Positions 12,896 through 50,299 of a stretch of DNA of 64,000 nucleotides are shown one piece after another. This stretch comes from Eunapius fragilis (lineage: Eukaryota > Porifera > Demospongiae > Spongillida > Spongillidae): the NCBI GenBank assembly GCA_963681505.1, contig OY811984.1, positions 3,172,858 to 3,236,857 on the forward strand. Direction: 5' to 3'. Numbering within the stretch: the stretch's first letter is position 1; each line of letters opens with the position of its first letter. The position numbers and the translations under genes were made by a program. Under the pieces are notes generated by a model. It was not told where the DNA came from and ran no database searches. It saw only the letters and a list, made by a program, of their open reading frames with translations.

Positions 12896-12943
<48 letters not shown>

Positions 12944-18900: not shown

Positions 18901-21900
18901 GTTCATGCACAAAACAACTGGATGGAATCATTGTCACTAAACAGATACATTTAACGACTATACAACCTGATGTCAAATAAATTTTGATTCATTACAGCAA
19001 ATATAGGAATATCAAACAGCACTGTAATTCAAGGCATCATTACATTAATGATAGCAACTTGAACAAGAGTGAGACAAAAATCTATGAAGCAGAGAAAAGG
19101 TGGAGCTGATGATGATGTGGTAAACATCTTGTGCAGGACAGAATGACAGTAACTGTAGATGGATTTCCTAACTCCACAAGGGAAGCAGATTACACAGAAA
19201 AGTGACTCACTTGATTCACATCAGCTCCTGCCTTCAAAAGCATCTCCACTACAGCTATGTGACCATTAGAAGCCGCACGATACAGTGGTGTCTGTAACAT
19301 GAAAGAGATAACATCCATTACACTCCAACCTCCATCTTAGCACCACCACTGGTACACTACACTTCTTACAACCTGATATGACAAATACTTCTAACTCATT
19401 TTCATAATAAAAAATCAACAAATCCCCAATGATTAATCTCACATCATTGATCTATGTTAATGTTGATTCTTGAGCAAGGATTTTAAAACAGGTATTCATG
19501 CACAATACAACAGGTTTTACTGTAGGCTATTCTTAGCAAAAACATCGCATTGGGTTCAATCATTTGTACAATAATACATGTACATGCAGTTTACAGATAT
19601 ATCCACAGGCAATACTTACGTCCTGATGTTGGATGATTTTGATTCAATTCACCAGATAAGCGACAGAGAAGGGATATTTAAAAGAACCATCTCAAAACCA
19701 ATAAATGTCAATTGATCAAGGGTACGAATCAAGAAAAGGAAAATGTTCATGCACAATACAACAGGATGGAATCATTGTCACTAAATAGATACATTTAATA
19801 ACTATAAAATAACTAAAAACAATGAATAAAAACACAGTTTTCACTACATCTACATGCAATACTTACGATCTGATGTTGGATGATTTTGATTCAATTCAGC
19901 CGATAAAAGGGAGAGAAGGAATAAGTATCAAAAACCAATGAACGGAACTTGAGGAAATGAATGAATCAAGAGAGGAAATATTTATGTACAGCACAATGCT
20001 ATGGCCAAAACCATTCTAGGTCGCTACTGCCATAGCAAAAAATTACCAGATAATGTTGGATTAATATTCCAAACTCATTTTCATAATAATAATTCAAGAA
20101 ATCCCCAATGCTTAATCTCACATAATCGCTCTATGTTAATGTTGATTTTCAAAGCAAGGATATTAATCAAAAAACAGGGATTCATGCACAATAAAACAGG
20201 TTTTTCCGTAGGTTATCTTAAGCAAATATATCCCTTGGGGTTCAATGATTTGTACAATAATACATGTACATGCAGTTTACACATACATCCACAGGCAATA
20301 CTTACGTCCTGATGTTGGATGATTTTAATTCAATTCACCAGATAAGCGAGAGAGAAGGAATATCAAAAAGAAGCATCACAAAACCAATAAATGTCAATTG
20401 ATCAAGGGTACGAATCAAGAAAAGGAAAATGTTCATGCACAATACAACTGGAGTTTTGTTGAGTGCTTCTCCACTTTAGCAAATACATCCCCTGGGGTTC
20501 AAAGTTTAGAATGACAATACAGTACATGTACAAGTAACTGGAGATGAACTGATTGTGAAGCAAAACAAACAAAAGAAGCACTACATGTACATTTAAAACA
20601 CTCAATAACAATCAACTAAAACACAGTATACACATATATCCACAGGCAATACTTACGTCCTGATGTTGGATGATTTTGATTCAATTCACCAGATAAGCGA
20701 CAGAGAAGGGATATTTAAAAGAACCATCACAAAACCAATAAATGTCAAATGATCAAGGGTACGAATCAAGAAAAGGAAAATGTTCATGCACAATACAACA
20801 GGATGGAATCATTGTCACTAAATAGATACATTTAATAACTATAAAATAACTAAAAACAATGAATAAAAACACAGTTTTCACTACATCTACATGCAATACT
20901 TACGATCTGATGTTGGATGATTTTGATTCAATTCAGCCGATAAAAGGGAGAGAAGGAATAAGTATCAAAAACCAATGAACGGAACTTGAGGAAATGAATG
21001 AATCAAGAGCAGAAATATTTATGTACAACACAATGCTATGGTCAAAACCATTCCAGGTTGCTACTGCCATAGCAAAAAATTACCAGATAATGTTGGATTA
21101 ATATTCCAAACTCATTTTCATAATATTCAAGAAATCCCCAATGCTATCTCACATAATCACTCTATGTTAATGTTGATTTTCAAAGCAAGGATATTAATCA
21201 AAAAACTGGGATTCATGCACAATAAAACAGGTTTTTCCGTAGGTTATCTTAAGCAAATATATCCCTTGGGGTTCAATGATTTGTACAATAATACATGTAC
21301 ATGCAGTTTACACATATCTCCCCAGGCAATACTTACGACCTGATGTTGGATGATTTTGATTCAATTCACCAGATAAACGTGAGAAAAGGGATATTAAAAC
21401 TACATGTAAGCATCACAAAACCAATAAATGTCAATTGATCAAGGGTACGAATCAAGAAAAGGAAAATGTTCATGCACAATACAACTGGAGTTTTTGTTGA
21501 GTGCTTCTCCACTTAGCAAATACATCTCTTGGGGTTCAAAGTTTAGAATGACAATACAGTACATGTACAAGTAACTGGAGATGAACTGATTGTGAAGCAA
21601 AACAAACAAAAGAAGCACTACATGTACATTTAAAACACTTTTCAGAGACAAGTGGAATTGTTTCAATTGCATAGGTGCTTTGGATGGCAAACATATTGTC
21701 ATAAGACCTCCTGCCAACACTGGATCGTACTACTTCAACTATAAACATCACTTCAGCATCGTGCTTTTGGCTTTGGTTGATGCGGATTACAAGTTTCTAT
21801 ATGTTGACATTGGCTGCAATGGTAGGGTATCAAATGGAGGTGTTTTCAAGAACAGTAGTTTATATGCTGCTCTTGAAAACAACACCCTGCATCTGCCCAA

Positions 21901-24900
21901 TCGTAAAGCACTACCTGGACAGAGTCAGCCTATGCCTTACACAATAGTAGCTGATGATGCATTTCCACTTAAGGATTATCTCCTAAAGCCCTACAGCCTG
22001 TCAGGACTAACAATACAGAATCGTGTATTCAACTACCGATTAAGTCGAGCTCGCAGAATAGTGGAAAATGCATTTGGCATTCTTGCTAACAGATTCCGAA
22101 TATTTATGGCACCAATTGCCTTAAAACCTGAAAAAGTTGAAGCTATCATTAGCCTGTTGCAGCCTGCACAATTTTCTTCGAACTCGAATTGGTGCCCGTT
22201 GTGCCTACACTCCTTCTTCAGTTCTAGACAGTGAAGATTCTGAAACACATTCAGTATTACCTGGTAACTGGCGACAAGGTCCAACACCTCAAGGACTACT
22301 ACCACTTGTACTGGCAAAGACGATTTGAATTATTAGAAACTACATGCATATATCTGTGTTCATATGTAAATATATATGTAAATACTATATACCTTAAGAT
22401 ATGGTTGTAAAACTTCATGTATGGCTTCATATGTCTCAGGGATTATTATAGGCCTATATTAAACCCATTCCACAGGCGTGCGCTGATAAAATGTGAACTA
22501 TAGGCTTGTTTTCAATTTTCCATCAAAATTCTGTCACACTAGTTTCCATGCTTACTACACCACCATTGTCAATCCTACATGTATATGCCCGCCAACTTTC
22601 TCGTTAGAGAAAGTTTTTGTTTACTTGTAAGTACCAAAAACCAATGAAGCGCACTTGTGAAAATGCACATGTGTGAATCAAGAGAGAAAATATTTATACA
22701 GGGATTATTTGTCCAATAGTCTGAGCAGCAATTCTGTAGATGTACTTCAAACTTTCGTAGGATTCATATAAATATTGCATGAATTGGTTATCACACAACA
22801 TGCGGGGATGCAACAATTTGCTTAATTGCCAACCTGTGGCCAAAAACCTTAATGTCAGAGCTAGTCGTTCTCCTGGATGAATAGATTGGCGCATTTTAGT
22901 ATCCTTTCGGATTATTAAAGGAGCCACCATGCCAAGCAATTCCTCAAATGTTGCAGCGTCCATCCGTACGAAGTTACGATAGCTGGATACATCCAGGACC
23001 TTTAGCTCTTGCAAAAGATGTTCATACGCTCCATGCGCTCCACGATTAAGCAACCACTTTTTAACCCACATAGACCTTTCCCTTCGTTTCCTCCGTCGAT
23101 TCTTCAACCTTATTGCAATTACAGCGGCACAAACTCCAACGACATCAGCTTCCGCCATAATGAATACCACTAAATTGATTTAATAGTTATTCAATGACTA
23201 GAGAACACATTACAGATCATGGAACTGACACTGACCATTCCTAAATAAAAGGATTGGAACCAATGATCAACTAAACTATTATGTCACAGTGGCTTGTGCG
23301 TCAAAGAAATCAGAGAAATCAAACAAGCGAGAACTACCATTGGAAGAATGAATCATAAATGTGGCGACCAAAATAATCATCAATCCAACGGCCTACACTA
23401 TGATAGGTTGCTGTGGCCAACACCATGCCAAGTCGTTATTGCTGATGATGGATGAATTTTACAGCAAATATCTATAATCATAGAATAGCTCAAATCAACA
23501 GCCATAACAAGAACAATGATTTTAAATACAGTTTACACAATTATCCACATGCAATTCTCACTATTTTTGTTCCATTCAGCAGATAAAAGAGAAGGAATAA
23601 TTATTAGAAACAGCACTAAACCTATGAAGCTCACTTGAGCAAACGTATGAATCAAGAGCGAAAATATTCATGCACATTACAACAGTTAACTTAGGGAATA
23701 TACTATGTACACATATCTGAATGCAATACTTTAAGTTGCTATGGCCAAAACCATGCAAGGTTGCCATTGCCACGTGCAACAAATACAACCTGATGTTAAA
23801 TAAACTTTGATTCGTTACAGCAAATATTAAGCGGCCTGTAATTCAAGGCACCACTAAATCAATGATAGCAACTTGAACAAGAGTGTGACACAAATCTATG
23901 AAGCAGAAGCAGAGAAAAGGTGGAGCTGATGATGATGTGGTAAACATCTTGTGCAGGACAGAATGATAGTAACTGTAGACGGATTCCCTAACTCCACAAG
24001 GGAAGTAGGTCACAAAGAAAGTGACTCACTTTATTCACATCAGCTCCTGCCTTCAAAAGCATCTCCACTACAGCTATGTGACCATTTTCAGCTGCACCAT
24101 ACAGAGGTGTCTGTAACATGAAAGAGATGACTCCAACCTCCATCTTAGCACCACCACTGGTACACTGCACTTCTTACAACCTGATATGACAAATAGTCCA
24201 AACACATTTTAAAAATCAACAAATCCTCAATGTTTAATCTCACATCATCGTTCTGCTAATGTTAATTTAACTTTTTGAGCAGGGATTTTAATCAAGAAAC
24301 AGGTATTCATGCGCAATACAACAAGTTTTTCTGTTGGTGATCTTTAACAAAAACATCCCTTTGGGTTCAATCATTTGTACAATAATACATGATCATCCAT
24401 TGTAGAGGAAGAAGAGATAAGAAAGGAGAAAGCTAGGAAGGTGAGAAAATAGCCCAACAGGATACTACTTGGTGAAGGTGATGAAAGTACATTTTACTTT
24501 AGATGGAATGATTGATTGTCACTAAATAGTTACAAGTAATGACTATGAAACAACCAACAAAAATGAACTAAATCACAGTTTTCACTATATCTTCATGCAA
24601 CACGTACGTTCTGATGTTGGATGATTTTGATTCAATTCAGCCGATAAATGAGAGAGAATGAATAATTATTAAATATATCAAAGACCAATGAAGGGAACTT
24701 GACGTACAAAGAGGAAATATTCATGCACAGCACAATGCTATGGCCAAAACCATTCCAGGTCGCTACTGCCACAGGGAGAAATTACCAGATGATGTTGGAT
24801 TAATATTCCAAACTCATTTTCATAATAAAAAATCAACAAATCCTCAATGCTTAATCTCACATCATCGCTCTATGTTAATGTTCATATTTAAGCAAGGATT

Positions 24901-27900
24901 TTAATCAAGAAACAGGTATTCATGCACAATACAACACGTTTTTTTGTCGGTTATCTTTAGCAAAAACATCCCTTGGGGTTCAATCATTTGTACAATAATA
25001 CATGTACATGCATAGTACATGAAGTAGAGATAAGAAAGGAGAAAGCTAGGAAGATGAGAAAATAGCCCAGCAGTATATTGCTTGGTGAAGGTGATGACAG
25101 TACATTTTACTTTGGATGGAATCATTGTCACTAAATTTAATGACTAAAATACAACCAACAACAATGAACTAAAACACAGTATACAAATACATCCACAGGC
25201 AATACTTACGCTCTGATGTGGGATGATTTTGATTCAATTCACCAGATAAGCGAGAGAGAAGGAATATTAAAAAGAAGCAACACAATAACAATAAATGTCA
25301 AATGATCAAAGGTATGAATCAAGAAAAGGAAAATGTTCATGCACAATACAACTGGAGTTTTTGTTGAGCACTTCTTCACAAACTTTAGCAAATACATCCA
25401 TTGGGGTTCAAAGTTTAGAATGACAATACAGTACATGTGCAAGTAACTGGAGATGAACTGATTGTGAAGCAAAACAAACAAAAGACGCACTAATAGGTAC
25501 ATGTAGAGATGAGGAAATTACGAAAGCGAGAAAATTGATGACATGGCCAACACTTGGACACATTACTATGGCCAACACCATGCCAGGTTGCTTCTGCCAC
25601 ATGAAATAATTACACGATGATGTTGGATGAACTTTCATTTATTGGAGACAAATTTGGAATAAATACCATCCAGAATAGTTCAAATTCATCAACATCCATA
25701 ACCAGAACAATGAACATGAATAAATATCCACATGTAATTACATGATGAAGATGATGGCCTCACTCCACAAGGGAAACAAGTCACACGGAAAGTGACTCAC
25801 TTTATTCACATCAGCTCCTGCCTTCAAAAGCATCTCCACTACAGCTATGTGACCATTTACAGCTGCACCATACAGAGGTGACTGTAACATGAAAGAGATA
25901 CTGTAACATCCATTATACTCCAACCTCCATCTTAGCACCACCACTGGTACACTGCACTTCTTACAACCTGATATGACAAAATAGTCCAAACTCATTTTCA
26001 AAACTAAAAATCAACAAATCCTCAATGCTTAATCTCACATCATCGCTCTATGCTAATGTTGATTTTTGAGCAAGGATTTTAATCAAGAAACAGGTATTCA
26101 TGCACATAACAAAAAGGTTTTTCTGTAGGTTATCTTTACCAAAAACATCCCTTTGGGTTCAATCATTTGTACAATAATACATCATCATCCATTGTAGAGG
26201 AAGTAGAGACAAGAAAGGAGAAAGCTAGGAAGGTGAGAAAATAGCCCAACAGGATATTGCTTGGTGAAGGTGATGAAAGTACACTTTACTTTGTATGGAA
26301 TTACTGTCACTAAATAGATTCATTTAATGACTAAATAACAATCAAATAAAACAATTTACAGATATATCCACAGGCAATACTTACAAACTGATGTTGGATG
26401 ATTTTGATTCAATTCAGCCGATAAAAGGGAGAGAAGGAATAATTATTAAAAAGTCTCAAAGACCAATGAAGGGAACTTGAGGAAATGAATGAATAAAGAG
26501 AGGAAATATTTATGCACAACACAATGCTATGGCCAAAACCATTCCAGGTTGCTACTGCCACAGGAAAAACGTACCTGCTGATGATGGATTAATATTCCAA
26601 ACTCATTTTCATAATAATAATTTACCAAATACCCAATGCTTAATCTCACATCATCGCTCTATGCTAATGTTGGTTTTTGAGCAAGGATTTTAATCAAGAA
26701 ACAGGTATTCATATACAATTTTTAAAAAGCTTTTCTGTAGGTTATATTTACCAAAAATATCCCTTTGGGTTCAATCATTTGTACAATAATACATGATCAT
26801 CCATTGTAGAGGAAGAAGAGATAAGAAAGGAGAAAGCTAGGAAGGTGAGAAAATAGCCCAACAGGATATTGCTTGGTGAAGGTGATGAAAGAACACTTTA
26901 CTTTACATGGAATGATTGATTGTCACTAAATAGTTACATGTAATGACTATAAAACAACCAATAACAATGAACTAAAACACAGTTTTCACTATATCTTCAT
27001 GCAACACGTACGTTCTGATGTTGGATGATTTTGATTCAATTCAGCCGATAAAAGAGAGAGAAAGAATAACTATTAAAAATATCAAAGACCAATGAAGGGA
27101 ACTTGACGTACAAAGAGGAAATATTTATGCACAAGACAATGCTATGGCCAAAACCATTCCAGGTCGCTACTGCCACAGGGAAAAATTACCAGATGTTGGA
27201 TTAATATTCCAAACTCATTTTCATAATAAAAAATCAACAAATCATCAATGCTTAATCTCACATCATCGCTCTATGTTAATGTTCATATTTAAGCAAGGAT
27301 TTTAATCAAGAAATAGGTAATCATGCACAATACAACACGTTTTTTTGTAGGTTATCTTAAACATCCCTTGGGGTTCAATCATTTGTACAATAATACATGT
27401 ACATGCATAGTACATGAAGTAGAGATAAGAAAGGAGAAAGCTAGGAAGGTGAGAAAATAGCCCAACAGGATATTGCTTGGTGAAGGTGATGACAGTACAT
27501 TTTACTTTGGATGGAATCATTGTCACTAAATTTAATGACTAAAATACAACCAACAACAATGAACTAAAACACAGTATACAAATACATCCACAGGCAATAC
27601 TTACGCTCTGATGTGGGATGATTTTGATTCAATTCACCAGATAAGCGAGAGAGAAGGAATATTAAAAAGAAGCAACACAAAACCAATAAATGTCAAATGA
27701 TCAAGGGTACGAATCTAGAAAAGGAAAATGTTCATGCACAATACAACTGGACTTTTTGTTGAGCACTTCTTCACAAACTTTAGCAAATACATCCATTGGG
27801 GTTCAAAGTTTAGAATGACAATACAGTACATGTACAAGTAACTGGAGATGAACTGATTGTGAAGCAAAAACAAACAAAAGAAGCACTAATAGGTACATGT

Positions 27901-30900
27901 AGAGATGAGGAAATTAGGAAGGCAAGAAAATTGATGACATGGCCAACACTTTGACACGTTACTATGGCCAACACCATGCCAGGTTGCTTCTGCCACATGA
28001 AATAATTACACGATGATGTTGGATGAATTTTCATTTATTTCGAATAAATACCATCCAGAATAGATCAACATCCATAACCAGAACAATGAATATAAATAAA
28101 TATCCACATGTAATTGCATGGTGAAGATGATGGCAGTACATGTTACTTTCGATGCACTCATTGTCACTAAATAGTTATTCAATGACTTTAGAACACATTA
28201 CAGATCATGGAACTGACACTGACCATTCCTAAATAAAAGGATTGGAACCAATGATCAACTAAACTATTAATGTCACAGTGGCTTGTGCGTCAAAGAAATC
28301 AGAGAAATCAAACAAGCCAGAACCACCATTGGAAGAATGAATCATAAATGTGGTGTCCAAAATAATGATCAATCCAACGGCCTACACTATGATAGGTTGC
28401 TGTGGCCAACACCATGCCAAGTCGTTATTGCTGATGATGGATGAATTTTACAGCAAATATCTATAATCATAGAATAGCTCAAATCAACAGCCATAACAAG
28501 AACAATGAATTAAAATACAGTTTACACAAATATCCACATGCAATTCTCACTATTTTTGTTCCATTCAGCAGATAAAAGAGAAGGAATAATTATTAGAAAC
28601 AGCACTAAACCTATGAAGGACTTGAGCAAACGTATGAATCAAGAGCAAAAATATTCATGCACATTACAACAGTTAACTTAGGGAATATACTATGTACACA
28701 TATCTGAATGCAATACTTTAAGTTGCTATGGCCAAAACCATGCCAGGTTGCCATTGCCACGTGCAACAAATACAACCTGATGTTAAATAAACTTTGATTC
28801 GTTACAGCAAATATTAAGCGGCCTGTAATTCAAGGCATCACTAAATCAATGATAGCAACTTGAACAAGAGTGTGACACAAATCTATGAAGCAGAAGCAGA
28901 GAAAAGGTGGAGCTGATGATGATGTGGTAAACATCTTGTGCAGGACAGAATGACAGTAACTGTAGACGGATTCCCTAACTCCACAAGGGAAACAGGTCAC
29001 ACAGAAAGTGACTCACTTTATTCACATCAGCTCCTGCCTTCAAAAGCATCTCCACTACAGCTATGTGACCTTGCTTAGCTGCACCATACAGTGGTGTCTG
29101 TAGCATGAAAGAGATAACATCCATTACACTCCAACCTCCATCTTAGCACCACCACTGGTACACTGCACTTCTTACAACCTGATATGGCAAATAGTCCAAA
29201 CTCATTTTAAAAATCAACAAATCCTCAATGCTTAATCTCACATCATCGTTCTGCTAATGTTAATTTAATTTTTTGAGCAGGGATTTTAATCAAGAAACAG
29301 GTATTCATGCACAATACAACAAGTTTTTCTGTAGGTTTTCTTTAACAAAAACATCCCTTTGGGTTCAATCATTTGTAAAATAATACATGATCATCCATTG
29401 TAGATGAAGAAGAGATAAGAAAGGAGAAAGCTAGGAAGGTGAGAAAATAGCCCAACAGGATATTGCTTGGTGAAGGTGATGAAAGTACACTTTGCTTTAT
29501 TATCACTAAATATAAACATTAAGACTAAATAACAATGAAAAAAATAACACAGTTTACAGATATATCCACAGGCAATACTTACCAACTGATGTAGGATGAT
29601 TTTGATTCAATTCAGCCGATAAAAGGGAGAGAAGGAATAATTCTTAAAAGTATCAAAGACCAATAATAGGAACTTGACGAAATTAATGAATAAAGAGAGG
29701 AAATATTTACAATGTATGCACAGCAATGCTATGGCCAAAACCATTCCAGGTCGCTACTGCCACAGGAAAAATGTACCCGCTGATGTTGGATTAATATTCC
29801 AAACTCATTTTCATAATAAAAATTCACCAAATACCCAATGCTTAATCTCACATCATCGCTCTATGTTAATGTTGATTTTTGAGCAAGGATTTTAATCAAG
29901 AAACAGGTAATCATGCACAATACAAAAAGGTTTTTCTGTAGGTTATCTTTACCAAAAACATCCCTTGGGGTTCAATCATTTGTACAATAATACATGATCA
30001 TCCATTGTAGATGAAGTAGAGAGAAGAAAGGAGAAAGCTAGGAAGGTGAGAAAATAGCCCAACAGGATATTGCTTGGTGAAGGGATGAAAGTACACTTTA
30101 CTTTGTATGGAATAACTGTCACTAAATAGATTCATTTAATGACTAAATAACAATCAAATAAAACAATTTACAGATATATCCACAGGCAATACTTACAAAC
30201 TGATGTTGGATGATTTTGATTCAATTCAGCCGATAAAAGGGAGAGAAGGAATAATTATTAAAATTATCAAAGACCAATGAAGGAAATTAGAGAAATGAAT
30301 GAATAAAGAGCGAGGGGGGGGGGGGCAAAGAAATCTGTATGGACCCCATCGTCCAATACTGTAGAGCTTGAAGAGAGGATTACAAATCTGCTTTTAAAAT
30401 AAAAATCTGACTTAAGAGAAAAACATACGAGGGATTTAAAAACGAGGGCGTAGGGGGTACCACCCTACGCCCCTTACATTTTTCTATCTTTTTTGTTTCG
30501 CTTCAGATTCACATGGGATTGACATCGATCGATTCACCGAGGTGAAAGTAGCTTGTTAGGACCGAAGTACAACGTGTAAACCCTCGCTAAAACCTTGTGC
30601 ATGTTTTAACCCAGTAATTAAACCTACCACACGTATCTCAGGAACGGCTGGGTTAAAACGTTAACTACATCGTTCTAGATTTTAGCGAGGGTCTAAAACT
30701 TGGTCTTAGGTGCTAATGAGTTACTTTCACTGAGAGGAATCGATCGATGTGACTCCCATATGAATCTGAAGCGAAACAAAAAAGATACGAAAAAGCGATA
30801 AAATGTAAGGGGCGTAGGGTGGTACCGCCCACGCCCTCCTTTTTAAATCCCTCGTATGTTTTTTCTCTTAAGTCAGATTTTTATTTTAAAAGCAGATTTG

Positions 30901-33900: not shown

Positions 33901-36900
33901 CAGGATATTGCTTGGTGAAGGGATGAAAGTACACTTTACTTTGTATGGAATTACTGTCACTAAATAGATTCATTTAATGACTAAATAACAATCAAATAAA
34001 ACAATTTACAGATATATCCACAGGCAATACTTACAAACTGATGTTGGATGATTTTGATTCAATTCAGCCGATAAAAGAGAGAGAAGGAATAATTATTAAA
34101 ATTATCAAAGACCAATGAAGGAAATTAGAGAAATGAATGAATAAAGAGCGAGGGGGGGGGGGGGCAAAGAAATCTGTATGGACCCCATCGTCCAATACTG
34201 TAGAGCTTGAAGAGAGGATTACAAATCTGCTTTTAAAATAAAAATCTGACTTAAGAGAAAAACATACGAGGGATTTAAAAACGAGGGCGTAGGGGGTACC
34301 ACCCTACGCCCCTTACATTTTTCTATCTTTTTTGTTTCGCTTCAGATTCACATGGGATTGACATCGATCGATTCACCGAGGTGAAAGTAGCTTGTTAGGA
34401 CCGAAGTACAACGTGTAAACCCTCGCTAAAACCTTGTGCATGTTTTAACCCAGTAATTAAACCTACCACACGTATCTCAGGAACGGCTGGGTTAAAACGT
34501 TAACTACATCGTTCTAGATTTTAGCGAGGGTCTAAAACTTGGTCTTGGGTGCTAATGAGTTACTTTCACTGAGAGGAATCGATCGATGTGACTCCCATAT
34601 GAATCTGAAGCGAAACAAAAAAGATACGAAAAAGCGATAAAATGTAAGGGGCGTAGGGTGGTACCGCCCACGCCCTCCTTTTTAAATCCCTCGTATGTTT
34701 TTTCTCTTAAGTCAGATTTTTATTTTAAAAGCAGATTTGTAATCCTCTCTTCAAGCTCTACAATATTGGACGATGGGGTCCATACAGATTTCTTTGCCCC
34801 CCCTCGATAAAGAGAGGAAATATTTATGCACAGCACAATGCTATGGCCAAAACCATTCCAGGTCGCTACTGCCACAGGAAAAATGTACCTGCTGATGATG
34901 GACTAATATTCCAAACTCATTTTCATAATAATAATTTACCAAATACCCAATGCTTAATCTCACATCATCGCTCTATGCTAATGTTGATTTTTGAGCAAGG
35001 ATTTTAATCAACAAACAGGTATTCATATACAATTTTAAAAAGACTTTTCTGTAGGTTATCTTTACCAAACACATCCCTTTGGGTTCAATCATTTGTACAA
35101 TAATACATGATCATCAATTGTAGATGAAGTAGAGATAAGAAAGGAGAAAGCTAGGAAGGTGAGAAAATAGCCCAACAGAATATTGCTTGGTGAAGGTGAT
35201 GAAAGTACACTTTACTTTATTGTCACTAAATAGATACATTTAATGACTAAATAACAATGAAAAAAAAACCCAGATATATCCACATGCAATACTTACCAAC
35301 TGATGTTGGATGATTTTGATTCAATTCAGCCGATAAAAGGGAGAGAAAGAATAATTATTAAAATTATCAAAGACCAATGAAAGAAATTAGAGAAATGAAT
35401 GAATAAAGTTAGGAAATATTTATGCACAGCACAATGCTATGGCCAAAACCATTTCAGGTCACTACTGCCACAGGAAAAATGTACCTGCTGATGATGGATT
35501 AATATTCCAAACTCATTTTCATAATAATAATTTACCAAATACCCAATGCTTAATCTCACATCATCGCTCTATGCTAATGTTGATTTTTGAGCAAGGATTT
35601 TAATCAAGAAACAGGTATTCATATACAATTTTTTAAAAGCTTTTCTGTAGGTTATCTTTACCAAAAACATCCCTTTGGGTTCAATCATTTGTACAATAAT
35701 ACATGATCATCAATTGTAGATGAAGTAGAGATAAGAAAGGAGAAAGCTAGGAAGGTGAGAAAATAGCCCAACAGGATATTGCTTGGTGAAGGTGATGAAA
35801 GTACACTTTACTTTATTGTCACTAAATAGATACATTTAATGACTAAATAACAATGAAAAAAAAAACCCAGATATATCCCCATGCAATACTTACCAACTGA
35901 TGTTGGATGATTTTGATTCAATTCAGCCGATAAAAGGGAGAGAAAGAATAATTATTAAAATTATCAAAGACCAATGAAGGAAATTAGAGAAATGAATGAA
36001 TAAAGTTAGGAAATATTTATGCACAGCACAATGCTATGGCCAAAACCATTTCAGGTCACTACTGCCACAGGAAAAATGTACCTGCTGATGATGGATTAAT
36101 ATTCCAAACTCATTTTCATAATAATAATTTACCAAATACCCAATGCTTAATCTCACATCATCGCTCTATGCTAATGTTGATTTTTGAGCAAAGATTTATA
36201 TCAAGATACAGGTATTCATATACAATTTTTAAAAAGCTTTTCTGTAGGTTATCTTTACCAAAAACATCCCTTTGGGTTCAATCATTTGTACTATAATACA
36301 TATACATGCATAGTATATGAAGTAGAGATAAGAAAGGAGAAAGCTAGGAAGGTGAGAAAATAGTCCAACAGGATATTACTTGGTGAAGGTGATGAAAGTA
36401 CAATTTACTTTACATGGAATGATTGTCACTAAATAGTTACATGTAATGACTATAAAACAACCAACAACAATGAACTAAATCACAGTTTTCACTATATCTT
36501 CATGCAACACGTACGTTCTGATGTTGGATGATTTTGATTCAATTCAGCCGATAAAAGAGAGAGAAAGAATAATTATTAAAAATATCAAAGACCAATGAAG
36601 GGAACTTGACGTACAAAGAGGAAATATTTATGCACAACACAATGCTATGGCCAAAACCATTCCAGGTCGCTACTGCCACAGGGAAAAATTACCATATGAT
36701 GTTGGATTAATATTAATATTCCAAACTCATTTTTATAATTAAAAATCAATAAATCCTCAATCCTTAATCTCCCATCATCACTCTATGTTAATGTTCATAT
36801 TTAAGAAAGGATTTTAATCAAGAAACAGGTAATCATGCACAATACAACAGGTTATTCTGTAGGTTATCTTCAGCAAAAACATCCCTTGGGGTTCAATCAT

Positions 36901-39900
36901 TTGTACAATAATACATGTACATGCATAGTACATGAAGTAGAGATAAGAAAGGAGAAAGCTAGGAAAGTGAGAAAATAGCCCAACAGGATATTGCTTGGTG
37001 AAGGTGATGACAGTACATTTTACTTTGGATGGAATCATTGTCACTAAATTTAATGACTAAAAAACAACCAACAACAATGAACTAAAACACAGAATACAAA
37101 TACATCCACAGGCAATAATTACGCTCTGATGTGGGATGATTTTGATTCAATTCACCAGATAAGCGAGAGAGAAGGAATATTAAAAAGAATCATCACAAAA
37201 CCAATAAATGTCAATTGATCAAGGGTACGAATCAAGAAAAGGAAAATGGTCATGTACAATACAACTGGACTTTTTGTTGAGCACTTCTTCACAAACTTTA
37301 GCAAATACATCCATTGGGGTTCAAAGTTTAGAATGACAATACAGTACATGTGCAAGTAACTGGAGATGAACTGATTGTGAAGCAAAACAAACAAAAGAAG
37401 CACTAATAGGTACATGTACCACTGCCACATGAAATAATTACATGTTGATGTTGGATGAATTTTCATTTATTTGGAATAAACACCATCCAGAATAGATCAA
37501 CATCCATAACCAGAACAATGAATATAAATAAATATCCACATGTAATTGCATGGTGAAGATGATGGCAGTACATGTTACTTTCGATGCACTCATTGTCACT
37601 AAATAGTTATTCAATGACTAGAGAACACATTACAGATCATGGAACTGACACTAACCATTCCTAAATAAAAGGATTGGAACCAATGATCAACTAAACTATT
37701 AATGTCACAGTGGCTTGTGCGTCAAAGAAATCAGAGAAATCAAACAAGCCAGAACCACCATTGGAAGAATGAATCATAAATGAATCAAGAGCGAAAATAT
37801 TCATGCACATTACAACCGTTAACTTAGGGAATATACTATGTACACATATCTGAATGCAATACTTTAAGTTGCTATGGCCAAAACCATGCCAGGTTGCCAT
37901 TGCCACGTGCAACAAATACAACCTGATGTGAAATAAACTTTGATTCGTTACAGCAAATATTAAGCAGCTTGTAATTCAAGGCACCACTAAACCAATGATA
38001 GCAACTTGAACAAGAGTGTGACACAAATCTATGAAGCAGAAGCAGAGAAAAGGTGGAGCTGATGATGATGTGGTAAACATCTTGTGCAGGACAGAATGAT
38101 AGTAACTGTAGACAGATTCCCTAACTCCACAAGGGAAGTAGGTCACAAAGAAAGTGACTCACTTGATTCACATCAGCTCCTGCCTTCAATAGCATCTCCA
38201 CTACAGCTATGTGACCATTTTCAGCTGCACGATACAGAGGTGTCTGTAACACGAAAGAGATGACATCCATTATACTCCAACCTCCATCTTAGCACCACCA
38301 CTGGTACACTGCACTTCTTACAACCTGATATGACAAATAGTCCAAACTCATTTCAAAAATCAACAAATCCTCAATGCTTAATCTCACATCATCGTTCTGC
38401 TAATGTTAATTTAATTTATTGAGCAGGGATTATAATCAAGAAACAGGTATTCATGCACAATACAACAAGTTTTTCTATAGGTTTTCTTTAACAAAAACAT
38501 CCCTTTGGATTCAATCATTTGTACAATAATACATGATCATCCATTGTAGATGAAGTAGAGATAAGAAAGGAGAAAGCTAGGAAGGTGAGAAAATAGCCCA
38601 ACAGTATATTGCTTGGTGAAGGTGATGAAAGTACATTTTACTTTAGATGGAATCATTGATTGTCACTAAATAGTTACATGTAATGACTATAAAACAACCA
38701 ATAACAATGAACTAAAACACAGTTTTCCCTATATCTCCATGAAATACTTACGTCCTGATGTTGGATGATTTTGATTCAATTCACCAGATAAGCGAGAGAG
38801 AAGGAATATTAAAAAGAAGCATCACAATAACAATAAATGTCAATTGATCAAGGGTACGAATCTAGAAAAGGAAATTGTTCATGCACAATACAACTGGACT
38901 TTTTGTTGAGCACTTCTTCACAAACTTTAGCAAATACATCCCTTGGGGTTCAAAGTTTAGAATGACAATACAGTACATGTACAAGTGACTGGAGATGAAC
39001 TGATTGTGAAGCAAAACAAACAAAAGAAGCACTAATAGGTACATGTAGAGATGAGGAAATTAGGAACGCAAGAAAATTGATGACATGGCCAACACTTTGA
39101 CACATTACTATGGCCATGATGTTGGATGAATTTTGATTTATTGCAGATAAATTTGGAATAGATACCATCAACATCATATAACCAGAGCAATGAATATAAA
39201 TAAATATCCACATGTAATTACATGGTGAAGATGATGGCAGTACATGTTACTTTCGATCCACTCATTGTCACTAAATAGATATTCAATGACTAGAGAACAC
39301 ATTACAGATCATGGAAGTGACACTGACCATTCCTAAATAAAAGGATTGGAACCAATGATCAACTAAACTATTAATGTAACAGTGGCTTGTGCGTCAACGA
39401 AATCAGAGAAATCAAACAAGCCAGAACCACCATTGGAAGAATGAATCATAAATGTGGTGTCCAAAATAATGATCAATCCAACGGCCTACACTATGATAGG
39501 TTGCTGTGGCCAACACCATGCCAAGTCGTTATTGCTGATGTTGGATGAATTTTACAGCAAATATCTATAATCATAGAATAGCTCAAATCAACAGCCATAA
39601 CAAGAACAATGAATTAAAATACAGTTGACACAAATATCCACATGCAATTCTTTGCTCTATTTTTATTCCATTCAGCAGATAAAAGAGAAGGAATAATTAT
39701 TAGAAACAGCACTAAACCTATGAAGGTCACTTGAGCAAACGTATGAATCAAGAGCGAAAATATTCATGCACATTAGAACCGTTAACTTAGGGAATATACT
39801 ATGTACACATATCTGAATGCAATACTTTAAGTTGCTATGGCCAAAACCATGCCAGGTTGCCATTGCCACGTGCAACAAATACAACCTGATATTAAATAAA

Positions 39901-42900
39901 CTTTGATTCGTTACAGCAAATATTAAGCAACCTGTAATTCAAGGTACCACTAAATCAATGATAGCAACTTGAACAAGAGTGTGACACAAATCTATGAAGC
40001 AGAGAAAAGGTGGAGCTGATGATGATGTGGTAAACATCTTGTGCAGGACAGAATGACAGTAACTGTAGATGGATTTCCTAACTCCACAAGGGAAACAGGT
40101 CACACAGAAAGTGACTCACTTTATTCACATCAGCTCCTGCCTTCAAAAGCATCTCCACTACAGCTATGTGACCATTAGAAGCCGCACCATACAGTGGTGT
40201 CTGTAACATGAAAGAGATAACATCCATTACACTCCAACCTCCGTCTTAGCACCACCACTGGTACACTACACTTCTTACAACCTGATATGACAAATAGTCC
40301 AAACTCATTTCAAAAATCAACAAATCCTCAATGCTTAATCTCACATCATCGTTCTGCTAATGTTAATTTAATTTTTTGAGCAGGGATTATAATCAAGAAA
40401 CAGGTATTCATGCACAATACAACAAGTTTTTCTATAGGTTTTCTTTAACAAAAACATCCCTTTGGATTCAATCATTTGTACAATAATACATGATCATCCA
40501 TTGTAGATGAAATAGAGATAAGAAAGGAGAAAGCTAGGAAGGTAAGAAAATAGCCCAACAGGATATTGCTTGGTGAAGGTGATGAAAGTACACTTTACTT
40601 TATTGTTACTAAATAGATACATTTAATGACTAAATAACAATGAAAAAAATAACACAGTTTACAGATATATCCACAGGCAATACTTACAAACTGATGTTGG
40701 ATGATTTTGATTCAATTCAGCCGATAAAAGGGAGAAATGGAAAAATTATTAAAAGTATCAAAGATCAATGAAGGGAACTTGACAAATGAATGACTAAAGA
40801 GAGGAAATATTTATGTACAACACAATGCTATGGCCAAAACCATTCCAGGTCGCTACTGCCACAGGAAAAATGTACCCTCTGATGTTGGATTAATATTCCA
40901 AACTCATTTTCATAATAATAATTTACCAAATACCCAATGCTTAATCTCACATCATCGCTCTATGCTAATGTTGATTTTTGAGCAAGGATTTTAATCAAGA
41001 AACAGGTATTCATGCACAATACAAAAAGGTTTTTCTGTAGGTTATCTTTACCAAAAACATCCCTTTGGGTTCAATCATTTGTACAATAATACATGATCAT
41101 CCATTGTAGATGAAGTAGAGATAAGAAAGGAGAGAGCTAGGAAGGTGAGAAAATAGCCCAACAGGATACTACTTGGTGAAGGTGATGAAAGGACATTTTA
41201 CTTTAGATGGAATGATTGATTGTCACTAAATAGTTACATGTAAAGACTATAAAACAACCAACAAAAATAAACTAAAACACAGTTTTCACTATATCTTCAT
41301 GCAACACGTACATTCTGATGTTGGATGATTTTGATTCAATTCAGCCGATAAAAGAGAGAGAAAGAATAATTATTAAAAATATCAAAGACCAATGAAGGGA
41401 ACTTGACGTACAAAGAGGAAATATTTATGCACAACACAACGCTATGGCCAAAACCATTCCAAGTCGCTTATGCCACAGGGAAAATTTACCAGATGATGTT
41501 GGATTAATATTCCAAACTCATTTTCATAATAAAAAATCAACAAATCCTCAATGTTTAATCTCACATCATCGCTCTATGTTAATGTTCATATTTAAGCAAG
41601 GATTTTAATCAAGAAATAGGTAATCATGCACAATACAACACGTTTTTTTGTAGGTTATCTTTACCAAAAACATCCCTTTGGGTTCAATCATTTGTACAAT
41701 AATACATCATCATCCATTGTAGAGGAAGAAGAGATAAGAAAGGAGAAAGCTAGGAAGGTGAGAAAATAGCCCAACAGGATATTGCTTGGTGAAGGTGATG
41801 ACAGTACACTTTACTTTGAATGGAATGATTGTCACTAAATAGATACATTTAATGACTATAAAACAACCAATAACAATGAACTAAAACACAGTTTTCACTA
41901 TATCTTCATGCAACACGTACGTTCTGATGTTGGATGATTTTGATTCAATTCAGCCGATAAAAGAGAGAGAAAGAATAATTATTAAAAATATCAAAGACCA
42001 ATGAAGGGAACTTGTCGTACAAAGAGGAAATATTTATGCACAACTCAATGCTATGGCCAAAACCATTCCAGGTCGCTACTGCCACAGGGAAAAATTACCA
42101 GATGATGTTGGATTAATATTCCAAACTCATTTTCATAATAATAATTTACCAAATCTTCTCCCATCATCGCTCTATGTTAATGTTCATTTTGAGCAAGTAT
42201 TTTATCCAGAAATAGGTATTCATGCACAATTTTCTGTAGGTTATCTTTACCAAAAACATCAATTTGGGTGCAATCATTTGTACAATAATACATGATCATC
42301 CATTGTAGATGAAGAAGAGATAAGAAATGAGAAAGCTAGGAAGGTGAGAAAATAACCCAACAGGATATTGCTTGGTGAAGGTGATGACAGTACTTACATT
42401 TTACTTTGTATGGAATTATTGTCACTAAATAGATACATTTAATGACTAAATAACAATGAAATAAAACAGTTTACAGATATATCTACATGTGCCCTGATGT
42501 TGGATGATTTTGATTCAATTCAGCCGATAAAAGGGAGAGAAGGAATAATTATTGAAAGTATCAAAGACCAATGAAGGGAACTTGAGGAAGTGAAATATTT
42601 ATGCACAGCACAATGCTATGGCCAAGTCGCTACTGCCACAGGGAAAAATTACCAGATGATGTTGGATTAATATTCCCAACTCATTTTCATAATAATAATT
42701 TACCAAATTCCCAATGCTTAATCTCACATCATCGCTCTATGTTAATGTTGATTTTTAAGGAAGGATTTTAATCAAGAAACAGGTATTCATGCACAATACA
42801 ACAGGTTTTTCTGTAGGTTATCTTCAGCAAAAACATCCCTTGGGGTTCAATCATTTGTACAATAATACATGTACATGCATAGTAGATGAAGTAGAGAGAA

Positions 42901-43310
42901 GATCACAAGTATTAAAAGTTATAGGAGAAAGCTAGAAAGGTGAGAAAATAGCCCTACAGGACAAGACAGAATGACAGTAAATGTTGATACATTACATGAA
43001 GCAATAGAATCAATTGTCATTGTTGGTTATTTGTTACATTCTCCTGCACACGCAATAAGGTACAGTTCATGTACATGTATACTGTATGCATTGGGGAGGT
43101 CAAGTATTTATGCACAGTGTACATTACAAACTGTGCATTCTATCATTGTCCTCAATACTTACAATCAACACTCATCACATGAACAAACATCAACATGAAG
43201 AGACTAGAATCAGATCACACATGTACCTGATACGTGTCATTGACGTTGACACCAAGTAATAGCAGTCGCTGAACAGTTTGCACATCACCAGCCTGGCATG
43301 CGTCACACAA
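1796..43310 (-). CDS. Ankyrin–ROC–COR–Death domain gene (DAPK/ROCO-like), multi-exon
   Basis: Recognised exons in transcript order are 43227-43310, 40120-40200, 38163-38243, 29017-29097, 25801-25881, 24030-24110, 19211-19291, 14470-14712, 4562-4621, 2321-3941 and 1796-2109. All junctions are phase 0 except the last, which is phase 1. The order ankyrin repeats, Ras-like ROC GTPase, COR and Death domain matches the C-terminal half of animal DAPK1. No kinase domain is visible, and the true start must lie upstream of 43310 in an exon I did not find. In this family ROC binds GTP, COR mediates dimerisation, and Death domains recruit apoptosis or immune partners. The chain of exons is inferred from splice motifs and phase. 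Directly joined, the 81-nt ankyrin exons give 27-residue repeats, six short of a canonical 33, so small exons are probably missing or some copies are skipped. Confidence 0.7.
2321..3941 (-). CDS. ROCO gene exon: ROC GTPase (G3 to end) and COR domain
   Basis: This is a single 1621-nt exon with acceptor CTTTTCAG at 3942-3949 and donor CAG|GTGATT at 2320, encoding about 540 residues. Residues 1-36 read NYFRAVEPPKPLTAGIIPYN and, a few residues on, the G3 motif DLAGQ at 32-36 followed by PEYYTSH, as in ROC domains. THADK at about residues 100-104 fits the G4 base-recognition motif. The rest, from about residue 170, matches the length and pattern of a COR domain plus a linker, including a conserved-looking FGWLMRTNEEHQFFHNRFL stretch. 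No internal stop or frameshift is present, so the exon looks intact. An open ATG at 3860 is internal to the ROC domain and not a likely start. Confidence 0.87.
4562..4621 (-). CDS. ROCO gene 60-nt exon in the ROC domain
   Basis: The acceptor CCTTGCACAG and donor AAG|GTGAGT frame a 60-nt phase 0-0 exon encoding AVMRIYDCNDEVGSTMDLLK. It sits between the P-loop exon at 14.5 kb and the exon starting at 3941. Joined, it gives a P-loop GNSGAGKSTLAQ, then this segment, then the switch region with TAGIIP, which is the spacing expected of a ROC domain. The 620-nt intron downstream of it (3942-4561) holds nothing I recognise. Confidence 0.72.
4622..6109 (-). other. Intronic sequence of the ROCO gene
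   Basis: Part of the ~9.8 kb intron between the 60-nt exon and the P-loop exon. I see no coding exon, transposon end or tandem repeat in it apart from short GT-rich words near 5460-5520. Confidence 0.5.
7225..7260. repeat. (GT)n microsatellite
   Basis: An uninterrupted GT dinucleotide run apart from one T insertion at its start. Confidence 0.9.
7730..7990. repeat. (GTGTGCAT)n microsatellite
   Basis: About 260 nt of GTGTGCATGT-type units with occasional GAGTGCATG and GCATATG variants. The matching place in the second module (about 10131-10200) has only a short version. Confidence 0.9.
8401..8901. repeat. (TATG)n tetranucleotide array ending in (TG)n
   Basis: About 470 nt of TATG units interrupted by TACATG and TGCATG variants, passing at 8871 into a pure TG run. 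The matching place in the second module, 10875-10975, is only about 100 nt long. Confidence 0.95.
9056..9140. repeat. CA-rich microsatellite
   Basis: CACACA runs interspersed with ACATGTACACACCCAC units, in two to three repeats. Confidence 0.85.
9308..9535. repeat. G-rich GGGA/GGGT minisatellite
   Basis: Units of the type GGAGGAGGGAGGGTGGGA are repeated about ten times. The plus strand has closely spaced GGG runs with strong quadruplex or triplex potential. Transcripts of the minus-strand host gene carry the C/T-rich complement. Confidence 0.92.
9696..9860. repeat. (GGGA)n microsatellite
   Basis: A GGGA tetranucleotide array with GAGA and GAAGAA interruptions, separated from the upstream G-rich array by a short copy of the module edge (about 9640-9695). 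Confidence 0.92.
10875..10975. repeat. Short (GT)n(TATG)n(GT)n array in module 2
   Basis: A GT run, about ten TATG units, and another GT run. It is the collapsed counterpart of the long array at 8401-8901, with the same unique flanks on both sides. Confidence 0.9.
11205..11395. repeat. (GGGA)n microsatellite in module 2
   Basis: A GGGA array following the same unique block (ending near ATGATGGGAGGG) as the array at 9308, so it marks the end of the second module. Confidence 0.92.
12899..12942. repeat. (GT)n microsatellite in module 3
   Basis: A pure GT run of about 44 nt, following CTTTGTCACATG, the same lead-in found before the TATG arrays in modules 1 and 2. Confidence 0.9.
14041..14077. 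repeat. (AT)n palindrome
   Basis: Two short ATATAT runs flank ATAATTATT, making a self-complementary stretch just outside the right arm of the foldback element. Confidence 0.7.
14470..14712 (-). CDS. ROCO gene exon: last ankyrin repeats and P-loop (G1) of ROC
   Basis: The acceptor CTGCAAG ends at 14713 and the donor CAG|GTATGT follows 14470, giving a 243-nt phase 0-0 exon of 81 codons. It begins GSTPLHVAVRKGHTDCVKKL, one ankyrin repeat, continues with DVNIKDTDGKTPVMLASG of a second, partial repeat, and ends with a nucleotide-binding P-loop GNSGAGKSTLAQ. The P-loop lysine and serine are intact. Ankyrin repeats leading straight into a P-loop is the layout of the DAPK1 ankyrin–ROC junction. Confidence 0.85.
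14713..19210 (-). other. ROCO gene intron made of satellite monomers
   Basis: Apart from about 300 nt of unique sequence next to the exon, the intron consists of diverged satellite monomers and the minisatellite at 17255-17760. Repeated short open frames on both strands in the monomers begin and end at arbitrary places and carry no recognisable domain. Confidence 0.6.
17255..17760. repeat. Minisatellite of ATTGCCATGGTCAACACCAT units
   Basis: About 500 nt of related units. The best-preserved part (about 17405-17575) is three copies of a unit of about 55 nt that contains GCCATGGTCAACACCATGAC and GACTATGGACTATCC. Flanking copies are more diverged and contain GTTGCTATGGCC. Single diverged units recur near 23400, 28385 and 39490 within the satellite. 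Confidence 0.85.
19211..19291 (-). CDS. ROCO gene 81-nt ankyrin exon, copy 6
   Basis: Acceptor TGTTACAG, donor GTGAGTCAC, phase 0-0, 27 codons. It reads TPLYRAASNGHIAVVEMLLK followed by AGADVNQ. It differs from the commonest copy by Arg for Gly after TPLY, Ser-Asn at the loop positions and a final Gln. It is the last 81-nt copy before the P-loop exon. Confidence 0.8.
21641..22328 (+). pseudogene. PIF/Harbinger transposase, C-terminal catalytic part
   Basis: The frame starts after a junction with satellite sequence near 21640 and reads FRDKWNCFNCIGALDGKHI, then KHHFSIVLLALVDADYKF, VADDAFPLKDYL and RARRIVENAFGILANRFRI. These are the DDE_Tnp_4/HARBI1-type catalytic blocks. The three acidic residues are present, at 21683 (GALDGKH), 21953-21958 (ADDAFP) and 22064 (VENAFG). 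A one-base loss near 22150 shifts the frame; the C-terminal block ACCSLHNFLR continues in the next frame to a stop at 22326-22328. The N-terminal half is absent here and lies on the opposite strand at 22694-23170. The element is therefore inactive. The strand is opposite to the host gene. Confidence 0.85.
22500..22627 (+). mobile_element. 3' terminal region of the Harbinger element
   Basis: The stretch from CAATTTTCCATCAAAATTCT to TTTACTTG matches, with several substitutions, the right arm of the 237-bp palindrome at 61450-61686. Shared words include ACACCACCATTG, TCAATCCTA and TCGTTAGAGAA/TTGTTAGAGAA. It lies directly downstream of the catalytic fragment, so it is most likely the terminal inverted repeat region of that element. 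Satellite sequence resumes right after it. Confidence 0.65.
22628..22693. repeat. Satellite fragment between the two Harbinger halves
   Basis: About 65 nt matching the satellite block around AAAACCAATGAAGGGAACTT, in the usual orientation. It separates the plus-strand C-terminal half from the minus-strand N-terminal half. Confidence 0.7.
22694..23170 (-). pseudogene. PIF/Harbinger transposase, N-terminal part, inverted
   Basis: This is an open frame of 158 codons on the minus strand. Its basic start RLKNRRRKRRERSMWVKKW and the blocks GAYEHLLQEL, YRNFVRMDAATFEELL and ERLALTLRFLATG are typical of the N-terminal half of Harbinger transposases. It breaks off after TIGQIIPV at a junction with satellite sequence. 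About 50 residues that would join it to the catalytic half at 21641 are missing, and the two halves face opposite directions. It is either one rearranged copy or two independent truncated insertions. Confidence 0.8.
24030..24110 (-). CDS. ROCO gene 81-nt ankyrin exon, copy 5
   Basis: Acceptor TGTTACAG, donor AAA|GTGAGT, phase 0-0. It reads TPLYGAAENGHIAVVEMLLK followed by AGADVNK, the commonest form of the repeat. It is flanked on both sides by satellite monomers and by the same approximately 100-nt unique intron edges as the other copies. Confidence 0.82.
25801..25881 (-). CDS. ROCO gene 81-nt ankyrin exon, copy 4
   Basis: Acceptor TGTTACAG, donor AAA|GTGAGT, phase 0-0. It reads SPLYGAAVNG and then as copy 5. 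The first residue is Ser instead of Thr, and the first loop residue is Val. The intron edge just outside the donor is shorter than in other copies because an ATGATGGCC junction interrupts it. Confidence 0.82.
29017..29097 (-). CDS. ROCO gene 81-nt ankyrin exon, copy 3
   Basis: Phase 0-0, with the acceptor shifted to TGCTACAG and donor AAA|GTGAGT. It reads TPLYGAAKQGHIAVVEMLLK followed by AGADVNK. The Lys-Gln pair at the loop is unique to this copy and needs at least three nucleotide changes from the Glu-Asn form, while the surrounding codons are unchanged. Confidence 0.82.
30311..30967. mobile_element. Palindromic MITE, hAT-like, copy 1
   Basis: The ends are CGAGGGGGG and CCCCCCTCG, and almost the whole 657 bp is an inverted repeat. 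The outer ~170 bp of each arm include GATGGGGTCCATACAGATTT and its complement, and inner arms pair around ATCGATCGAT. It is flanked on both sides by the 8-bp direct repeat ATAAAGAG (30303-30310 and 30968-30975). An 8-bp target duplication with G-rich short ends is typical of hAT. No coding capacity, so it would depend on a transposase supplied in trans. Confidence 0.85.
34149..34806. mobile_element. Palindromic MITE, hAT-like, copy 2
   Basis: A duplicate of the MITE at 30311, carried by the 3838-bp tandem duplication, with the same flanking ATAAAGAG at 34141-34148 and 34807-34814. It differs from copy 1 at a few positions, including the length of the terminal G run. Confidence 0.85.
38163..38243 (-). 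CDS. ROCO gene 81-nt ankyrin exon, copy 2
   Basis: Phase 0-0, acceptor TGTTACAG, donor CAA|GTGAGT. It reads TPLYRAAENGHIAVVEMLLK followed by AGADVNQ. It combines the Arg and the final Gln seen in copy 6 with the Glu-Asn loop of copy 5, which suggests exchange between copies. Confidence 0.82.
40120..40200 (-). CDS. ROCO gene 81-nt ankyrin exon, copy 1
   Basis: Phase 0-0, acceptor TGTTACAG, donor AAA|GTGAGT. It reads TPLYGAASNGHIAVVEMLLK followed by AGADVNK. It shares the CCA and GCG synonymous codons and the Ser-Asn loop with copy 6 but has Gly and Lys where copy 6 has Arg and Gln. Confidence 0.82.
43227..43310 (-). CDS. ROCO gene first recognised ankyrin exon
   Basis: Acceptor TTTTTTGATCAACAG, donor CAG|GTACATGTG, 84 nt, phase 0-0. 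It encodes LCDACQAGDVQTVQRLLLLG followed by VNVNDTYQ, which reads like the first, capping ankyrin repeat of an array. It has no start codon, so at least one more exon must lie further right. I could not identify it between 43310 and 47400. Confidence 0.7.
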
Positions 43311-44759: not shown

Positions 44760-44923
44760 GAAAGAACCGACCAAGTTAAAACCGAAATAACTATTGATAG
44801 GATGAAGATAAATGAAACTAAGTCCGATGGGTCGCTCGAACCCTCGGTTTTAGGTTCAAAATACTAGACTTTTATCTTCATTCTATCAAGAGTTATTTCG
44901 CTTTTAACCCGGTCGGTTCTTTC
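44760..44923. mobile_element. 164-bp hairpin element
   Basis: GAAAGAACCGACCAAGTTAA and the following ~40 nt at the left end are matched, with a few mismatches, by the reverse complement of the right end, which finishes CCGGTCGGTTCTTTC. The loop is about 45 nt. It looks like a small foldback MITE. The class is unknown, and no clear target duplication was seen. Confidence 0.65.
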
Positions 44924-45059
44924 ATGGACACCCTGTATAGAAATAAATTTTAATTAATAATGTTAGACAGTATATATGCTCCAACATGCACTAAATTTAT
45001 TTGGTGTTCCAATCGCAATTTAATCATTATTTTGGCTAGTGAAGTTGTTTTTCTAAAAA

Positions 45060-50248: not shown

Positions 50249-50299
<51 letters not shown>

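Follow-up and report, generated by a model that had tools for sequence, protein, structure and literature searches.

The stretch of DNA analysed here (the window) comprises 64,000 nucleotides of contig OY811984.1 from the sponge Eunapius fragilis (C14:3172858-3236857 in our contig labels), and lies within the 219-Mb genome assembly that was used for genome-wide searches. Its minus strand carries a gene, hereafter gene A, with six ankyrin exons of 81 nt each, followed by exons for a Roc GTPase, a COR-like region and a probable Death domain. Each of the six array exons (A1 to A6) holds one repeat, and all six have a length divisible by three, constant length and phase (0-0), and the same borders, with the acceptor ...TACAG and the donor GTGAGTCACT. 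The two exons that were scored singly, A1 and A2, both exceed the Pfam Ank cut-off of 21.1 bits, and three joined repeats reach 87.1 bits. A preliminary description of this DNA had listed six near-identical 81-nt exons in phase 0-0 together with their variable residues; our coordinates and phase match it, and the residues agree in 6/6 copies. With codon positions numbered so that TPLH occupies positions 6-9, we also obtained its count of five amino acid-changing codons (6, 10, 13, 14 and 32) versus three silent ones (7, 11 and 23).

Gene A is one of three tandem paralogues on C14. On the same strand and 5' to it are genes B and C, with longest aligned blocks that are 86-96% identical, and the intact array exons number six in A, three in B and five in C, which carries one frameshifted exon besides. 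A blastn search with one array exon, in a 224-kb slice of C14 containing two runs of 2,500 N, returned 15 copies (79-81 nt, one carrying a 2-nt deletion) and, in addition, two weak partial matches (E 0.52).

Variation in this family was compared with that of its introns on a tree built from 300 nt of intron flank on each side, along which changes were counted. The intron baseline amounted to 0.528 changes per site (559 sites, maximum 4). Codon 13 displayed 4, 3 and 3 changes, that is 10 in three sites versus ~1.6 expected, with a Poisson estimate of 6.6e-6, or 1.8e-4 when corrected for 27 codons. The counts at the other variable codons were 2, 1 and 0 (codon 10), 2, 0 and 0 (codon 32) and 1, 0 and 1 (codon 14). 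Within gene A, copies differ by 0.33 per site at codons 10, 13, 14 and 32 and by 0.026 in the remaining exon; the corresponding intron values are 0.067 (5') and 0.175 (3'). We also asked where the changes fall relative to the hot codons of a second exon family, located on contig C3 and described below; the hot codons were derived from the C3 data, and the tests on C14 are the independent ones. In gene A the changes affect 3/4 of the C3-hot codons and 2/23 of the others (Fisher p = 0.013). With positions 13-14, which are randomised in designed ankyrin repeat proteins (DARPins), enrichment gave p = 0.028 in gene A and p = 0.103 over all 14 exons. DARPin framework positions include 6, 10 and 32. 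The window family thus displays one clear hotspot, at position 13, and a modest overall trend. The earlier proposal that variation is concentrated at loop or contact positions is supported by this hotspot and by the enrichment in gene A; it is weaker at the other codons, none of which stands out clearly against the introns.

Exon exchange among array copies is possible. In the preliminary description, copy 2 looked like a mosaic derived from copies 5 and 6; we find this weak, as several switches would be needed inside 81 nt: A2 shares CCT, GCA and GAA with A5, and CGT and CAA with A6, in alternating order, and has a private CTA. The intron flanks of A2 group with those of A5.

A related exon is far more abundant on C3. 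When a single array exon served as the query of a protein search, 842 candidates arose, of which 150 were scored and 140 matched, mostly on C3 between 4.6 and 8.7 Mb. Those C3 exons that were read measure 84 nt and have an extra codon (position 5) right after the acceptor. With a 30-base pattern taken from the invariant stretch of the exon, 124 matches at up to three mismatches were obtained, against none with the reversed control; all of the 100 listed among these 124 lie on C3, 71 of them without any mismatch. C3 carries most or all of the 124 exon matches. There are also 30 kinase matches on C3 at no less than 91% identity, one with an in-frame stop. All of the 121 listed C3 exons (100 listed of the 124 pattern matches and 27 protein-search matches, merged) have a same-strand kinase 3' at some distance, and one exon or more is assigned to 28/34 kinase places; the pairing takes the next same-strand kinase at any distance and is a weak test, with 6/34 kinases left without an exon and one exon 383 kb off. 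From order and strand we infer that array exons and kinase form one gene. One C3 gene end that was read closely displays a heptad-like stretch (sub-threshold Tropomyosin) and then a kinase domain (Pkinase, E 6e-33). None of the 79 scored Roc-COR-like matches (see below) is on C3. At two places, C3:7006565-7008256 and 7151927-7153618, two kinase matches stand in one 845-aa open frame. Moreover, two C3 segments ~869 kb apart, L030 (7263000) and L031 (8131900), are 99% identical, and may represent a recent duplication or an uncollapsed haplotype.

Selection in the C3 family was studied in the contiguous pieces L025-L028 and L030-L032 together with 37 C3 sites picked by hand from the 140 protein-search matches. 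The C3-region loci are L025-L028, L030-L050 and L053-L071, without L051 and L052, and three short loci came from other contigs. Of 65 exons found, 58 were kept; those left out were the three of L031 (duplicates of L030), L049 (missing flank) and L051, L052 and L072 (other contigs). The tree set comprised 57 exons, L036 also being dropped by flank limits. Among the 58 exons we found 13 amino acids at position 5, eight at position 10, seven at position 13, six at position 32 and five at position 9, and most remaining codons were fixed or nearly so. Fingerprints of these five residues (5, 9, 10, 13 and 32) were distinct in 52 instances out of 58. In the 22 exons of the contiguous pieces, nonsynonymous (pN) and synonymous (pS) differences were 0.355 and 0.096 at hot codons and 0.028 and 0.034 at other codons, with a median intron distance of 0.09-0.10.

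When changes were counted by parsimony on the flank tree, the three sites of codon 5 displayed 27, 24 and 19 changes, those of codon 10 displayed 13, 17 and 1, and those of codon 13 displayed 14, 14 and 4; codons 32 (4, 7 and 3) and 9 (5, 3 and 2) followed. The intron baseline was a mean of 2.85 over 274 sites (95th percentile 8, maximum 13). Codons 5, 10 and 13 are far above introns, and at codons 32 and 9 any increase is moderate at most. At codons 10 and 13 the third base (1 and 4 changes) does not leave the intron range; this speaks for selection acting on the amino acid and makes a local mutation hotspot at these codons unlikely. At codon 5 the same test says little, as C/G changes of the third base mostly alter the amino acid. 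Codon 5 also displays a restricted alphabet, its third base being C or G and its middle base never C in 61 C3 exons.

An array exon covers positions 6-32 on C14 and 5-32 on C3. The C14 exon encodes 27 residues in place of the 33-residue unit with its beta-hairpin, and repeats spliced directly to each other would be 27 residues long. Engineered ankyrin proteins are the top PDB matches of the joined array, and the joined exons align to them with a gap of ~6 residues per repeat. A microexon coding for the hairpin may be present within the introns; in directly joined exons position 32 would adjoin position 5 or 6 of the next repeat. By analogy with known ankyrin structure, the variable positions would be placed on the ligand face.

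Downstream of the array, the P-loop exon and the next exon, once joined, match Pfam Roc over its full length (33.7 bits, 1-119/119, cut-off 27); scored apart, the two halves reach 13.7 and 12.7 bits. A structure model of the Roc-COR part was too poor for use (mean predicted local distance difference test score, pLDDT, 34). For the last exon, the AlphaFold model consists of six helices at low confidence (mean pLDDT 52), and in Foldseek the top six matches of this model all belong to death domains, at probabilities of 0.89-0.99, the best E being 0.25 and no match reaching E 0.001, with entries from Fas/FADD, p75NTR, TNFR1, an oligomeric death-domain complex and RAIDD; by sequence the exon had no PDB match. 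It is probably a Death domain, as judged from the model. Exon lengths and phases across gene A are mutually consistent. We agree with the preliminary description that the array is followed by a GTPase and a Death domain, the former above cut-off when joined and the latter probable. In the exons scanned there was no NACHT or NB-ARC match, only sub-threshold matches of AAA and nSTAND3 to the P-loop, and no domain was detected at E 0.01 between the P-loop and Roc exons (window 3999-13899).

The N-terminal ankyrin-like exon, at the upper end of the interval in question (43310-43227), had no Pfam match when scanned alone and is 93% identical in paralogues B and C. The first coding exon of gene A was not found. 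Further upstream, the three minus-strand frames of window 43400-63200 (~20 kb) gave no kinase and 0 Pfam families at E 0.01, in a scan that short exons can escape; in its control both array exons were detected and the N-terminal exon was missed. A true DAPK1 with upstream kinase was considered and set aside, none being detected in these ~20 kb by a scan that may miss a kinase split over short exons. Gene A would then be an ANK-Roc-COR-like-Death gene, with the layout of DAPK1 and no kinase seen (Table 1).

Genome-wide, 79 of 152 candidate Roc-COR-like ORFs (open reading frames) were scored as matches, and the best outside C14 is 43% identical, on C12. These 79 places, on C1, C2, C4-C7, C11, C12, C14 and C23, point to a large expansion whose members outside C14 are 37-43% identical to the ORF of the window. 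For one Roco ORF on C12, the adjoining 4 kb on the upstream side showed no ankyrin exon at the threshold used.

Table 1. Coding parts of gene A, in transcript order, and intronic repeats, in window coordinates.
Feature	Window position	Strand	Evidence
N-terminal ankyrin-like exon, 84 nt, LCDACQAGDVQTVQRLLLLGVNVNDTYQ	43227..43310	-	AG/GT borders, phase 0
Array exon 1 (A1), TPLYGAASNGHIAVVEMLLKAGADVNK	40120..40200	-	Pfam Ank 26.0 bits
Array exon 2 (A2), TPLYRAAENGHIAVVEMLLKAGADVNQ	38163..38243	-	Pfam Ank 35.7 bits
Array exon 3 (A3), TPLYGAAKQGHIAVVEMLLKAGADVNK	29017..29097	-	Exon borders, phase
Array exon 4 (A4), SPLYGAAVNGHIAVVEMLLKAGADVNK	25801..25881	-	Exon borders, phase
Array exon 5 (A5), TPLYGAAENGHIAVVEMLLKAGADVNK	24030..24110	-	Exon borders, phase
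Array exon 6 (A6), TPLYRAASNGHIAVVEMLLKAGADVNQ	19211..19291	-	Exon borders, phase
Last ankyrin repeats and Roc P-loop GNSGAGKSTLAQ, 243 nt, phase 0-0	14470..14712	-	94-96% identical in two paralogues
Remaining Roc and COR-like region, 1621 nt, starts NYFRAVEPP	2321..3941	-	Pfam Roc after join; COR-B sub-threshold
Last exon, Death-domain-like, including stop codon	1796..2109	-	Sub-threshold Pfam Death; Foldseek
Intronic repeats between and beside array exons, spacing often near 600 nt	24186..42965	.	21 copies (300-nt reference, at least 60% identity)

The ~600-nt units were considered as further ankyrin exons and rejected; they are intron repeats, and nothing scores apart from the six array exons and the terminal ankyrin exon. 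Elsewhere in the window, the intron between A5 and A6 contains a DDE_Tnp_4 transposase ORF (E 1.8e-29, window 21596-22234, plus strand). A Pfam SelK_SelG match at window ~35904-35981 on the minus strand (27.8 bits against a cut-off of 23.3), obtained from an intron frame with stops read as X, is probably due to chance. Long microsatellite and low-complexity tracts at 7500-9900 and 60600-61300 result in open frames on both strands, and PADLOC gave a single weak match (PDC-M72A, E 0.0017).

We consider it moderately probable that gene A encodes a recognition receptor of the ANK-Roc-COR-like-Death type, whose ankyrin solenoid is assembled from duplicated one-repeat cassette exons with contact codons under selection. 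According to this hypothesis the product would be an intracellular receptor whose variable residues lie along a single face of a hairpin-less ankyrin stack and determine ligand specificity. Ligand binding would switch the Roc GTPase and gather Death domains, leading to cell-death or defence signalling. The array would evolve by exon duplication and homogenisation, with selection retaining new residues at contact positions, and the number and set of exons per transcript may vary through splicing. We infer both the receptor function and the splicing pattern of the arrays from sequence. A broader proposal, plausible and still short of probable in our judgement, is that the sponge possesses an animal-evolved repertoire, independent of fungi and brown algae, of hairpin-less cassettes in which paratope codons (5, 10, 13 and, less so, 32) diversify under selection on a homogenised framework and exon choice or shuffling sets specificity. 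Its two unrelated backbones would be Roc-COR-Death on C14 and a kinase on C3.

These proposals should be interpreted with some caution, since several observations weigh against them. The three array exons of gene B are identical, including 60 nt of flank. In gene C the differences at codons 10, 13, 14 and 32 (0.083) lie between the intron means of 0.062 and 0.110. Its frameshifted exon (C14:3349046-3349124) carries a 2-nt deletion while the downstream Roc-COR-like ORF is open; this exon may be skipped, or the gene may be damaged. Over all 14 intact C14 exons, enrichment at C3-hot codons gave p = 0.093. On C3, 36/58 exons were selected by similarity and the hot codons were picked from the same data. 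Moreover, position 14, which is randomised in DARPins, is invariant there (58/58), and position 24, which is not known as a contact position, holds V, L or I with 8 changes. The 99%-identical segments L030 and L031 carry the same set of three exon variants, and diversification is therefore not visible at that time scale. Finally, the COR-B match (17.7 bits, E 0.0032) is below its cut-off of 27, and the Pfam Death match of the last exon (E 0.11) is also below cut-off. The preliminary description envisaged a sensor face diversified by exon duplication and exchange: duplication stands and the C3 exons support diversification, whereas the mosaic is weak, the exons of gene B are identical and gene C offers little or no excess.

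An alternative account is plain concerted evolution, in which exons were duplicated together with their repeat-rich introns, the framework is maintained by purifying selection and the differences in the window family represent drift at tolerant surface positions, with no selection for new binding. The introns are full of repeats, the identical exons of gene B and the small or absent excess in gene C would be expected, and the C14 sample is limited to 14 intact exons. In ankyrins the loop residues at positions 13-14 tolerate substitution. Tolerance, however, predicts at most the intron rate, which the 10 changes at codon 13 of C14 exceed, and on C3 six exon sites are above the highest of 274 intron sites, with the reservation that recombination between exons and flanks inflates such tree-based counts. 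On balance we regard drift of this kind as unlikely. A different possibility, to which we would give some credence while doubting it, is that the exons form an alternative-splicing cassette array and are picked singly or in subsets, for a role in self-recognition, symbiont tolerance or development and not in defence. The phase 0-0 of 6/6 array exons would keep the frame whichever were chosen, the frameshifted exon of gene C would be harmless if skipped, and alternative splicing is known for the repeat exons of the brown-algal counterpart, according to the available part of PMC11378527.

Decay could account for the frameshift in 1/15 C14 copies, and the transposase ORF between A5 and A6, the identity of the gene B exons and their flanks, and the near-identity of L030 and L031 could be read as signs of dead pseudogene exons or of an assembly artefact. 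Against this, 14/15 C14 exons keep their frame and AG/GT borders, and the Roc-COR-like ORFs of both paralogues are open and 96-97% identical to that of the window. In addition, the flanks of gene A and gene C exons differ by copy, so that one exon has not been assembled repeatedly. We find decay or artefact highly improbable.

It is the C3 exons, outside the window, that make the strong case for diversification. One-repeat exon arrays with a diversified ligand face are already known from brown algae, and diversified near-identical repeats from fungi, as judged from the parts available of the sources cited below. The present case brings features of this kind together in an animal, where ankyrin cassettes precede two backbones. 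Among the matches listed from the open-licence PMC literature (titles and abstract openings), there was no report of diversified one-repeat ankyrin exon arrays in an animal. If our reading is true, an animal ankyrin version shared by Roco-Death and kinase backbones would mean that this receptor logic had been invented independently, as nature's counterpart to a DARPin library. The C3 family also amounts to a natural experiment on a large scale, with more than 100 copies of one scaffold in which the variable codons can be read directly, and permits testing of paratope rules and selection without a library.

Like DARPin libraries, the sponge arrays combine a consensus ankyrin framework with few variable positions. 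The positions randomised in DARPins are 2, 3, 5, 13, 14 and 33. Only 5 and 13 of these are hot on C3, and 13 on C14; unlike in DARPins, the hairpin that holds positions 33 and 1-3 is absent here. Gene A resembles the non-kinase part of DAPK1, which contains ankyrin repeats. It differs from DAPK1 in that the scan of ~20 kb upstream, from which short exons can escape, detected no kinase before RocCOR. DAPK1 is described in the passages available of PMC6337361 as a metazoan Roco protein (group 3) with a kinase before RocCOR, a C-terminal death domain and no leucine-rich repeats (LRR).

Fungal NOD-like receptors (NLRs) contain near-identical ANK, TPR or WD repeats under concerted evolution, with positive selection at concave inner-helix and hairpin or loop positions (Dyrka et al. 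2014, PMC4986451, in the passages available). The sponge family shares the near-identical repeats, with variable positions probably under selection, but the fungal NLR core is NACHT or NB-ARC whereas the GTPase here is Roc. The passages on fungal NLRs in PMC4986451 describe no one-repeat-per-exon array with a 27/28-residue unit. An expanded ankyrin receptor-like family whose diversity derives from exon structure is also found in the NACHT-ANK genes of Tuber melanosporum, with codon-sized microexons and alternative splicing (Iotti et al. 2012, as mentioned in PMC4986451); by that brief account those are microexons, unlike the whole-repeat exons here.

In the LRR-ROCO genes of brown algae each LRR is encoded by its own 72-nt phase-2 exon (Zambounis et al. 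2012, cited in Teng et al. 2024, PMC11378527), and according to the passages of PMC11378527 available to us these exons are shuffled and alternatively spliced, with the concave face under positive selection. Compared with that description, the sponge arrays consist of ankyrin exons of 81/84 nt in phase 0, the host is an animal, a Death-like domain is present, and the C3 arrays precede kinases, not Roc-COR. The likeness to the brown-algal genes, as far as the same passages go, includes the putative Roc-COR type, one repeat per exon, fixed length and phase, and a conserved framework. Diversification of the presumed ligand face, the brown-algal trait, is indicated here by parsimony, strongly at three codons on C3 and also at one codon on C14.

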